Source of the DNA: Rubrobacter tropicus
Lineage (GTDB): Bacteria > Actinomycetota > Rubrobacteria > Rubrobacterales > Rubrobacteraceae
DNA: 64,000 nucleotides
Assembly: GCF_011492945.1 (NCBI RefSeq)
Contig: NZ_CP045119.1
Span: forward strand, 4,030,001 to 4,094,000
Direction: 5' to 3'
Under the pieces are notes generated by a model. That model worked only from the letters and a program-made list of their open reading frames with translations, had not been told where the DNA came from and searched no databases. Position 1 is the stretch's first letter, and the number at the start of each line of letters is the position of its first letter. Shown here piece after piece: positions 3,717 to 9,807 of this stretch. The position numbers and the translations under genes were made by a program.

Positions 3717-4679
3717 TCAATCTCCGTTGCGACCGGGTGCCGGCGGCATCCCCTTGAACATCCTGGCGCAAACGTCGGCCAAGCCGGCGCGTTTGTCGCC
3801 CAGTAGCGAGCGCACCTCGTCCAGCGAGGCACCGAAGGCATCCTCGTCGTCCCCGTCTGCTAGGGCCGCCAGTCGACGGACGCCATCCAGCAGTGCCGCC
3901 CGAGCGGCCGGGGCCTCCGGGTTGGCCGACTGTATGTCCCAGTAGACCTCCGGGGCACCGGAGGCGATCCTGGCCAGCACGGCGAGCATCGCGAGGTGCG
4001 GCGGCGGCGCAAGCGCGCACAGGTCGTCGATGTCCGCTTCCAACTCGCGTAGGGCGTACCCGAAGGCCAGCACGGCGCCGTGGGTCGCGACCTGCATGGC
4101 CGAGGCCAAACGGTCGTGCTCCTCCGGCCCGATCGGGACGACCCGGCCCCCCCAGGAAGAGAGCAGCCGGCGCATCGTTTGGGCCCTGGGGCCGTCCGCC
4201 AAGATGCTCACCGCGATCGGCCGCCCGGCCATGCCGAGCGACGGGTGGAACATGGGGTCTAGGCTCAACGCCTCTACCGAAGGAGCCTCCTTGCGCACCG
4301 AGGCGGCGATGCGGCTCTTCACCGACAGCGTGTCCACCAAAAGGGCTCCGCGACGCATGCTGCGGGCCACCGGTCCCACGGCCGCGAGCGCGGCGCGCTC
4401 CGGCACCGCCAGCAGGACGAGGTCGGACTTCCCTATCTCCCGAGAGACGCGCTCCGGGGGGGCCGTGATGTCCGCCCGCTCGTAGCGCACCCGCGGGATC
4501 CGTTCTCCCGCCGGCGGAGCGTCGACGTCCACCGACGTCACCCGGGCGCCCGAGCCCGCCAGCAAAGAGGCGAACATCCGGGCGACCTGCCCGTTTCCGC
4601 CCGCCACCACGCAGCGCGTGATCTCCTCGCGGGACGCTTCTTCCCGGCTCCGCGCGTAATCCGCCGGCACGCCCTTCAC
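3717..4679 (-). CDS. papC: Prephenate-dehydrogenase-like protein, probable 4-amino-4-deoxyprephenate dehydrogenase
   Basis: The protein has 320 residues. An N-terminal Rossmann fold ([17 protein letters not shown]) is followed by a helical domain typical of TyrA/PapC dehydrogenases, with the prephenate-type segment [10 protein letters not shown]. TyrA enzymes oxidise and decarboxylate prephenate. PapC does the same to 4-amino-4-deoxyprephenate, giving p-aminophenylpyruvate. The start overlaps the stop of the aminodeoxychorismate synthase gene by 4 nt (ATGA), and that gene overlaps the mutase gene likewise, which favours the Pap assignment over ordinary tyrosine synthesis. A transaminase for the last step is not in the window. 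Sequence alone does not fix the substrate. Confidence 0.72.
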
Positions 4680-6811
4680 GTCGGCTCCCCGGCCGCGGGA
4701 TCCGAAAGGAGCCGCAGGGCGGTGGCGGAGATGGCGGCGTTCATGGCCCTCGCCTTGACCAAGGTCTCCTCGAACTCTTCCTCCGGCTCGGACAACGCCA
4801 CGATGGCTCCCCCTACTCCATAGGTGACCGCTTCCGGCGTAGAGACGATAGTGCGGATGACGATGTTGAGGTCCACGGCGCCGCCCAACGCGAAGTAGCC
4901 GAGCGCGCCGGAATACACGCCCCGGGGGCCCGCCTCGAGCCTATCTATGATCTCCATGGTCCTGATCTTCGGGGCGCCGGTCATCGACCCGCCGGGGAAG
5001 GCGGCCTTTACGCAGTCCACGGCGGAGACCTCGGGCCGCAGCGAGCCGCGGATGGTGGAGACCAGCTGGTGGACCGTGGCGTAGGATTCGACGGCGAACA
5101 GTTTCGGGACGTGCACGCTACCCACCTCGCACACCGAGTTGAGGTCGTTGCGGAGCAGGTCCACGATCATGAGGTTCTCGGCGCGGTCTTTCTCGTCGCG
5201 CGCGAGGTTCTTCCTCAGCGCATCGTCCTCCGCGGGCGTCGCGCCGCGGGGCCGCGTGCCCTTGATCGGTTTCGACTCGACCTTCCCGCCGGCGGAGACG
5301 GTCATGAACCGCTCGGGGGAGGCGCTCAGTACGGCCAAGTCGGGGAACCTCAGCAGCGCCCCGTAGGGCACCGGGCTTATCTTTCTCAAGCAGGCGTACG
5401 TCCGCAGCGGGTCCAGTGCGACGCGCGCGGACGCCATGTTCGTGAGGCAGATCTCGTACGACTCGCCGTTCCTTATCTCCTGCAGGCACTCTTCCACCAG
5501 CCCCAGGTAGGCCTCGCGCGGGTGCCTGAGCGTGCCCGAAACGGGGTCTTGGGTGTTGTCGATCTCCACGCTGACGGTTTCCGTTCCTCCCGACGACCCC
5601 TCGGCGGCGCCAACGGCCCGCACCCGCCGGGACGTCTCGTCCAGCCACCTGTCCGCGTCCCGATGATCGTCTCCCTCGCTCAGGCACAGAGCGTAGCTGG
5701 CGCCTTCGGCGTGGTCGAGCACGAGCATGCGATCCGAGAATAGGAGCGCGGCGTCGGGCGTCGGCGACTTGTGCGCTCGGGCCCCGCCGCACTCCGCCTT
5801 CAGCTCGTAGCCGAGGTACCCCACGTAGCCCAGGTCGAATTCGAACGGGAGTTCGGGCGAAGCCACCGAGCGTCGGCGGAGAGCCCCGTCCAGGTACTCG
5901 AAGAACCCTTGGCGGCGCCGGGTGGTGCCGCCCTGGCCCCGGATCGTGACCGTCCGCTCCGCCAAGCTGTAGGTGACGAACTCCGCGTGCGGGCCGGAGC
6001 CGTCGCCCATGAACGAGAAGCGCGATAGCCCTTCTATCGCGGCGCTGCTGTCCAGCCAAAAACTGTACCGGGATGCCCCGAAGAGCCCCGCGTAGAGGCG
6101 CTCGGCGTCGGGCAAGAACGGGATCTTGCGCACCCGGAGGGTGTAACGCGGCGCGCCGGCCTCCTCGGGCGCCGGTTGCGGTGGCAGGCTTGGTGCGATA
6201 GGTGCCGGGTGCGACGACGTCCCGCAAGGCTCGGCGTGGCGTCTCGTCAGGTCTTGGAAGTTCTCGATCAGGCGCCGGCCGTGCTCGGTGCAGATGGACT
6301 CCGGATGGAACTGCACGCCCCACAGCGGCCTCGAGCGGTGGCGCAGACCCATCAGGACGCCGTCTTCCGTCCAGGCCAGGGGTTCGAGTTCCTCAGGAAG
6401 CTCCGCGACGGCGAGCGAATGGTAGCGTACCGCGGAGAACGGCGAGGGGATGCCGGCGAAGACATCCTGCCCCGTGTGGTGGACCGGGCTCAGTCGTCCG
6501 TGCATCGCCTCGGGGGCCAAGTCGACCTCGCCCCCGAAGAGGTGGCCGATCCCCTGGTGGCCAAGACAGACGCCCAGGACCGGAACCTCGTTCTCAAGCA
6601 CCGCGCGGGCACTCTCGCCGAAGTCGCGCCGCCTCTCGGGGCGTCCCGGGCCGGGCGAGACGACCACGTTGTCGAACTCGGATATCGACAGGTCGGCCCA
6701 GTCCTCGGCGTCGTTGCGCACGACCTCGGGCGGCTCGCCCGCCACCTCGCCGAGCAGCTGGTAGAGGTTGTAGGTGAAGGAGTCGTAGTTGTCGATCAGT
6801 AGCGTCCTCAC
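4676..6811 (-). CDS. papA: Fused aminodeoxychorismate synthase (glutaminase plus synthase)
   Basis: This 711-residue fusion turns chorismate and glutamine into 4-amino-4-deoxychorismate. The N-terminal amidotransferase has Cys82 in GVCLGHQ and His169/Glu171 in GVQFHPES. The C-terminal chorismate-binding part carries PIKGT at 515-519; lysine here marks aminodeoxychorismate synthases, while anthranilate synthases have PIAGT. The [19 protein letters not shown] and GGSMTGAPK blocks are intact. A proline-rich linker of about 30 residues joins the halves. It sits between mutase-like and dehydrogenase-like genes with 4-nt overlaps on both sides, the gene set known from chloramphenicol and pristinamycin precursor supply. 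No 4-amino-4-deoxychorismate lyase gene (pabC) is beside it, which argues against a folate-only role. Confidence 0.88.
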
Positions 6812-8539: not shown

Positions 8540-8553
8540 CACAGGGCCGGGGC

Positions 8554-9807
8554 CTACCCCCCCGCCCCCGCGGCGGCGCGCAGGGACCGCCGACCCGCCA
8601 GGTTGATTAGCAGGGCCGCGGCCGCGGCCCCCGCCGAGAGCAGGAAAGTACCCAGGGCGCCCGCGGAGTCCGCGAGGGGGCCGCCTGCGGCGGCGCCCGC
8701 GGCGGTGCCCACCGCGATGGCGCTCGAGATCCAGGCGAAGCTCTCCGTGAGGCTCTCGGGCGGGACCAGGGACTCCACCAGCATGTAGCCGGAGATCAGG
8801 GTCGGCGAGATGGCCAGGCCCGCGACAGCGGCGCAGGGCGCCATGAGGGCAACCGAGTTTGCGAGGCAGAGCGGGACGGCCCCGACAACGAGCACGAGCG
8901 TCGACAGGAGGAAGCGCGGCCCGGGTCCCACGCCCGCCGGCAGGGCGCCGTAGGCGAGGCCCGAGACCAGGCTGCCGGCGCCCACGAGCGCCAGAAGTAG
9001 CCCTGCGGCGGCGGGCGAGCCCTGCTCCCTAGCGAAGGCGACCACCCCGATGTCCACGGCGGCCAGGAAAGCGCCGAAGGCGGCAAAGACGGCCACCACA
9101 ACCCACATCCCCCGTTCTCGTACCACTCCGCCTACTAGGTGCGCGGCCCCGCGCGTATCCGACCGCCGGGCAACCGTCGGCTCCGTGCTTTTCTGGGCGG
9201 CGAGAGCGAGCGAGCCGACGGTTACCAGCACCAGGGCGCCGAGCAGGCCCGCCTCGGGGGCCACGCCCACCGCGAGCGCGGTGACCAGCGCGGGCCCGGC
9301 GACGTATATGACCTCGTCGAGCACGGACTCCAAAGCGTAGGCCGTGCTTAGGCCCGGCGTGCCTGCCGACGCGTCCGGTGGCTGATCCGGGTCGTCCTGA
9401 GCCGCCTTCTTCACGAGTGCGGTCCACCGTGCACGCACGAGGGGTCCCAGAGACAGCGCGGAGGCGCCGACGACCGCCGCGGCTACCAAGAGCGCCCAGG
9501 CCGGCGCTTCCTGCCGCGTGAGAAAGACGAGCCCGAGGACCCCGCAAACATGCACCACCAGGGACGCGAGGATCACCAAGCCTTGGCCCCGATTGTCCGC
9601 CAAACGGCCCAGAGCCGGCGAGAATGCGGCCTGGGTGAGTGTGAAGGCCGCGACCGCGGCGCCGGCCAACGCGTAGGAGCCGGTCAGGGCAGAAACCATC
9701 AGCAGGCACCCCAACGAGCGCATGGACATGGGAAGCCGACCCAGAAACCCGGCCGCCACCATGGCGGGGGCCCCTGGCAAAGCCAGCAGGTAACGGTAGG
9801 CTTGCAT
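8554..9807 (-). CDS. MFS transporter, 12-helix type, probable exporter
   Basis: About 417 residues from ATG 9807, mostly hydrophobic with roughly twelve membrane segments. A typical MFS loop motif (GRLADNRGQ) follows the second helix and a long polar loop lies near the middle. The start is supported by GAGGAGG about 8 nt upstream; longer starts to 9909 give an arginine-rich non-membrane extension. The gene converges on the amidinotransferase gene with 14 nt between stops, closing the pap-like cluster. Export of the cluster product, or self-protection, is a reasonable inference. The substrate cannot be read from sequence. Confidence 0.82.
   Translation of the reverse strand: MQAYRYLLALPGAPAMVAAGFLGRLPMSMRSLGCLLMVSALTGSYALAGAAVAAFTLTQAAFSPALGRLADNRGQGLVILASLVVHVCGVLGLVFLTRQEAPAWALLVAAAVVGASALSLGPLVRARWTALVKKAAQDDPDQPPDASAGTPGLSTAYALESVLDEVIYVAGPALVTALAVGVAPEAGLLGALVLVTVGSLALAAQKSTEPTVARRSDTRGAAHLVGGVVRERGMWVVVAVFAAFGAFLAAVDIGVVAFAREQGSPAAAGLLLALVGAGSLVSGLAYGALPAGVGPGPRFLLSTLVLVVGAVPLCLANSVALMAPCAAVAGLAISPTLISGYMLVESLVPPESLTESFAWISSAIAVGTAAGAAAGGPLADSAGALGTFLLSAGAAAAALLINLAGRRSLRAAAGAGG

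Follow-up and report, generated by a model that had tools for sequence, protein, structure and literature searches.

In E. coli, papABC gene sets of Streptomyces and of Pseudomonas origin give 4-aminophenylalanine with the help of host aminotransferases (PMC4863162, PMC7570522). The papABC/cmlB-type cassettes compared here are those for chloramphenicol, pristinamycin I and dnacin B1 (dinV/E/F), the pfpapABC genes of P. fluorescens, and a cluster on a Rhodococcus plasmid that also encodes the exporter CmrA. We describe a related locus in a 64,000-nucleotide stretch of the Rubrobacter tropicus genome (hereafter the window; C1:4030001-4094000, C1 being the contig that carries it, in an assembly of 4.58 Mb, 2 contigs and 97.7% completeness), where a papB-papA-papC operon adjoins genes for an L-arginine amidinotransferase (AGAT) and a transporter of the major facilitator superfamily (MFS). 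From the enzyme families, the operon and the island context evident in the sequence we infer, with about even confidence, a joint pathway on a horizontally acquired island, free of nonribosomal peptide synthetases (NRPS), in which PapBAC would supply 4-aminophenylpyruvate or 4-aminophenylalanine, an intact AGAT would amidinate an amine, and ligation and export by the MFS protein would follow. In the sampled genomes and in the literature searched, no other case was found of papBAC paired with an AGAT that lies outside an NRPS cluster.

An earlier note on this DNA had set out five open reading frames, and the coordinates, motifs and overlaps it gave were all correct. Together with a ligase gene on the left, the cluster comprises:

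2516-3703, plus strand: carboxylate-amine ligase of the GCS2/YbdK type, convergent with papC (NF010043)
3717-4679, minus strand: papC (relatives in papBAC loci; D141-PMF motif)
4676-6811, minus strand: papA, a fused glutaminase and 4-amino-4-deoxychorismate synthase with the PIKGT motif (match to PDB 8hx6)
6808-7179, minus strand: open reading frame of papB, with its likely ATG start at 7152 (TIGR01803)
7153-7390: intergenic region between the diverging papBAC and amidinotransferase genes (open reading frame coordinates; a promoter scan found no sigma-70-like promoter in it)
7391-8539, plus strand: L-arginine amidinotransferase of the AGAT/StrB1 family (phmmer, alignment and tree)
8554-9807, minus strand: MFS transporter gene, convergent with the amidinotransferase gene (MFS_1, 3.8e-16)

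The assignment of the operon as papB-papA-papC, proposed in the earlier note, is upheld by several features of the three proteins. PapA has the 4-amino-4-deoxychorismate synthase motif PIKGT rather than PIAGT, and its best PDB match is an enzyme of this activity (8hx6), over the full fused length and at 890 bits. PapB scores above the cut-off of the chorismate mutase-like model TIGR01803 (84.7 versus 73.35 bits), and the motifs MQPxR and E(S/T)CRxE are common, with small variations, to 12 relatives. PapC matches PDH_N and PDH_C weakly; a search with it of 395 Actinomycetes genomes found 15 places, in 12 of which PapA and PapB adjoin, and the identities to these sister loci are 45-65% for PapA, 33-58% for PapB and 31-56% for PapC. 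The catalytic His of TyrA contacts the 4-hydroxyl of prephenate. In the window PapC this residue, which lies in HPMF in 2pv7 and in HPMA in the genome's own TyrA, is replaced by Asp (D141-PMF), and in 15 aligned PapC relatives it is Asn; because of the contact made by the His, either replacement would fit a 4-amino substrate. Neighbouring genes overlap by 4 nt (GTGA) at both junctions, papB/papA and papA/papC, and the papB start at ATG 7152 has GGGAGGGGAG ahead of it. The genome also has three further CM_2 genes, one of them a PheA fusion, and, at C1:3017320, a separate canonical TyrA that carries HPMA. The objection foreseen in the earlier note, that PapB and PapC are the organism's sole chorismate mutase and TyrA, therefore fails, and we rejected a housekeeping role for the pair. 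On their sequences PapB, PapA and PapC are dedicated rather than housekeeping enzymes, and homology argues strongly that the operon would yield 4-aminophenylpyruvate and then, through a host transaminase, 4-aminophenylalanine.

The product of the diverging gene had been described as a glycine-amidinotransferase homologue with its catalytic triad, and this too holds. The protein has no Pfam match at 1e-3; phmmer matches it to StrB1 (1bwd, 1.4e-63) and human AGAT. Counted from ATG 7316, its catalytic residues D236, H282 and C390 align with D254, H303 and C407 of human AGAT, while the extent of the conserved part agrees with a start at ATG 7391. The Cys-His-Asp set is accompanied by a GGGFHC motif, the acidic active-site residues D158 and D284 are also conserved, and the enzyme is predicted to be catalytically intact. 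The flanks of the catalytic His are distinctive: the window AGAT reads H-H-A-D (residues 281/283) versus N-H-I-D in five relatives of its clade, and at position 283, Ala here, every other aligned AGAT has I, L or V. Residues near the catalytic His and at the acceptor end differ from those of both StrB1 and AGAT; the loop around this His also differs between human AGAT and StrB1. The H281/A283 change is a hint, compatible with a bulkier acceptor and equally with drift in a divergent member of the family.

Relatives of the AGAT were sought in GTDB contigs, in 395 Actinomycetes and 397 phylum-wide genomes, in 251 genomes of an actinomycete family (f34), and in 320 genomes of the phylum of a Defluviitaleaceae metagenome-assembled genome (MAG). 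Five alone exceed 50% identity (51-56%): those of the Defluviitaleaceae MAG (L020), of Virgisporangium ochraceum (L021), and of L158, L159 and L160. In the tree, which tested the window AGAT together with L020 and L021, these three group in a single clade with support of 100/98. The Virgisporangium gene stands in a row of carrier protein, AGAT, NRPS and a gene resembling a polyketide synthase (PKS); that of L158 has an adenylation domain, a carrier protein and a B12-radical-SAM gene as neighbours, that of L159 an NRPS, and that of L020 radical-SAM and aminoacyl-ligase-like genes. A radical-SAM partner common to the clade was considered and rejected, the L158 and L020 proteins not being clearly related.

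In the proposed pathway PapA would convert chorismate to 4-amino-4-deoxychorismate, PapB would rearrange this to 4-amino-4-deoxyprephenate, PapC would carry out the oxidative decarboxylation to 4-aminophenylpyruvate, and a housekeeping transaminase, judged by homology, would give 4-aminophenylalanine. AGAT would take the amidino group from arginine and pass it to an amine; its clade suggests that an aliphatic amine or amino acid, which would become a guanidino building block, is a more likely acceptor than the PapBAC aryl amine. The earlier note saw no NRPS or PKS in the window, and this was borne out over 464 kb around the cluster, a region without a profile scan, in which motif and BLAST searches found none; a neighbouring NRPS or PKS was on these grounds ruled out as a partner of the cluster. 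Because no NRPS lies nearby, these compounds would either remain free or be joined by a carboxylate-amine ligase, for which the adjacent GCS2-type gene is a candidate, and the MFS protein would export the product.

The GCS2 ligase gene, 13 nt from papC, is a possible extra member of the locus. Its product matches NF010043 (glutamate--cysteine ligase) above cut-off, and is 60-64% identical to homologues in the family; being one of five paralogues in the genome, and not found near papBAC elsewhere, it was rejected as the normal family gene at this place. The MFS gene, with a Shine-Dalgarno sequence AGGAGG upstream of its start at ATG 9807, encodes an ordinary MFS_1 protein, in line with the MFS assignment of the earlier note, and would serve in export. 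We rejected a chloramphenicol-type exporter, since the protein has no similarity to CmrA of the Rhodococcus papABC cluster.

Horizontal acquisition of the papBAC-AGAT cluster, in a putative genomic island, at whose tRNA-proximal end it would lie, is the best reading of its context, because neither AGAT nor full-length fused PapA is in any other sampled genome of the host's family (about 40 genomes), and because tRNA-Gln repeats, tyrosine integrases and adjoining defence genes accompany it. Two features mark the flanks:

1147-1767, minus strand: small serine recombinase, left flank (PF00239, 1.9e-27)
10623-10697, minus strand: tRNA-Gln(CTG), right border of the putative island (ARAGORN)

Copies of the 3' part of this tRNA-Gln, all oriented as it is, lie to the left of the cluster at C1 3,732,930 (62 nt, 98%), 3,746,214 (44 nt, 100%), 3,774,016 (74 nt, 90%) and 3,666,258 (34 nt, 91%), segments of 34-74 nt being spread over 374 kb; ARAGORN places a second tRNA-Gln at C1 3,732,945. 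The pattern is like that of several islands stacked at a tRNA gene, with att-like repeats. Tyrosine integrases lie at C1:3,781,339 and C1:4,013,573, and the segment C1:4020837-4031154, which reaches from the left into the beginning of the window, encodes a PDC-S28-like DEAD helicase, a type ISP/IIG restriction-methylation protein and an unassigned, NTPase-like protein of 955 aa, followed by the small serine recombinase. Within the cluster itself, a search for direct or inverted repeats gave weak, chance-level matches only.

A number of observations weigh against a joint pathway. No DAHP (3-deoxy-D-arabino-heptulosonate 7-phosphate) synthase, aminotransferase or regulator dedicated to papBAC was recognised adjoining the operon, and several related papBAC loci do carry a DAHP synthase. 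The papBAC, AGAT and MFS genes are convergent or divergent and not one operon. Co-occurrence of AGAT with papABC elsewhere, which the earlier note had named as a test, was not borne out. In neighbourhoods of about 10 kb on each side, some of them cut short by contig ends (L160 has less than 6 kb in all), and in genomes that are a sample, papABC stood beside AGAT at none of 42 AGAT places, and AGAT, MFS or GCS2 beside PapC at none of 15 PapC places. The bond of AGAT, MFS and GCS2 with papBAC is thus one of adjacency, since they were never together in the 15 loci. Full-length fused PapA is absent from the L020 and L021 genomes; one genome (G384) has both AGAT and papABC-type genes, but its assembly, in 820 contigs, puts them on separate ones.

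The genes might accordingly be accidental neighbours, the island having taken papBAC and AGAT, with or without the MFS gene, from different donors for unrelated pathways. We consider this possible, if doubtful. The closest PapA proteins (64-65%) belong to one genus of the f34 family, whereas the closest AGATs are from Virgisporangium, from the Defluviitaleaceae MAG and, within f34, from fragmented genomes belonging to other genera; papBAC and AGAT are separate transcription units, the MFS protein has homologues (48-51%) at unrelated places in two congeners, and the gene content of the island is mixed. Set against this are the short gaps, about 240 nt between papB and AGAT and about 15 nt between AGAT and MFS, and the fact that both units are intact and of specialised-metabolite type.

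A bolder alternative, close to the guanidino-aromatic product of the earlier note, is that 4-aminophenylalanine or 4-aminophenylpyruvate is amidinated by AGAT at its aryl amine and that the MFS protein exports a free p-guanidinophenyl compound. Two intact biosynthetic units adjoin and diverge with no NRPS nearby, and the smaller side chain at AGAT position 283 could let a larger acceptor fit. On the other hand, AGAT and papABC occur together at none of the other places examined (0/42, 0/15), and the closest AGATs (51-56%) belong to loci of NRPS/PKS or radical-SAM type whose genomes or contigs lack papABC. The literature searched links no amidinotransferase with aminodeoxychorismate or aminophenylalanine, and no guanidinophenyl natural product was found in it. 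Aniline nitrogen is a weak nucleophile, and we know of no AGAT-family enzyme that amidinates an aryl amine or aniline nitrogen. With an acceptor lacking known precedent and with co-occurrence failing, we hold such a product to be unlikely, and the guanidino-aromatic proposal found no support. Slightly less probable again is its fullest form, in which the AGAT, adapted through H281/A283 to the PapBAC aryl amine, would yield the first biosynthetic p-guanidinophenyl compound, NRPS-free and from a mobile island.

Least probable of all is that PapA is the organism's source of p-aminobenzoate for folate and the operon partly housekeeping. What speaks for the idea is that PapA, used as query against the whole genome, matched no further PabB-like protein (TrpE, TrpG, isochorismate-synthase-like and other glutamine amidotransferase matches only), while congeners G002, G006 and G007 have PabB-like matches at 43-44%; but the PapBC pair and the 4-nt overlaps point to 4-aminophenylpyruvate, related operons resemble specialised clusters, and in a genome 97.7% complete a PabB could be missed; PapA may nonetheless double as a folate enzyme.

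Other papBAC and AGAT loci have ligases of another family, and this recurrence of NRPS-free ligases beside related genes speaks for the proposed ligation. The nearest papBAC operons (L110-L112), each with a divergent ATP-grasp ligase gene, constitute another type of papBAC cluster; L110 has in addition an AMP-ligase and a DAHP synthase, and no NRPS was recognised in the stretch of L110-L112 examined. An ATP-grasp gene also follows sister-clade AGATs, on a Streptomyces xanthii plasmid (L182, NZ_CP061283.1 43538-62674) and in L056, where an ATP-grasp/L-amino-acid-ligase gene comes directly after AGAT; these loci are likely to make NRPS-free guanidino peptides. The S. xanthii locus also has P450 and Asp-hydroxylase genes. 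Elsewhere in the window, 41195-42250 encodes a coiled-coil, apolipoprotein-like protein that ends in an E3-binding (peripheral subunit-binding) domain and is one of a series of similar helical proteins; strand skew is strong at 42-46 kb.

If the two units cooperate, genetic access to aromatic building blocks that mimic arginine would be opened, and the range of AGAT acceptors would grow by a new class. Even if they are independent, the locus presents a papBAC cassette away from the NRPS context usual for it, and none of the sampled relatives in this lineage has one. Either way, it offers a clean test case for the cooperation of neighbouring biosynthetic genes on islands.

Compared with the papABC/cmlB-type cassettes, the window locus has the same three enzymes, a fused 4-amino-4-deoxychorismate synthase and the diagnostic PapC and PapB motifs, in the order B-A-C that prevails in most related actinomycete loci; PapA, PapC and PapB of the Rhodococcus plasmid cluster with its chloramphenicol exporter CmrA are 58.6, 40 and 49% identical to its set. 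It differs from these cassettes in having no recognised DAHP synthase, NRPS or chloramphenicol-type exporter, in adding an AGAT, a GCS2 ligase and an unrelated MFS protein, and in a PapC with Asp, where other PapCs have Asn, at the former catalytic His. With StrB1, human AGAT and HsvA its amidinotransferase shares the fold family, the Cys-His-Asp triad and D158 and D284, whereas it falls into a clade of its own with L020, L021 and L158-L160, from the rest of which residues 281/283 set it apart. The S. xanthii-type loci (plasmid NZ_CP061283 and L056) differ in an AGAT of another clade (about 39%), in an ATP-grasp enzyme instead of GCS2 and in lacking papABC; like the window locus, they combine an NRPS-free amidinotransferase with an adjoining enzyme of peptide-ligase type.

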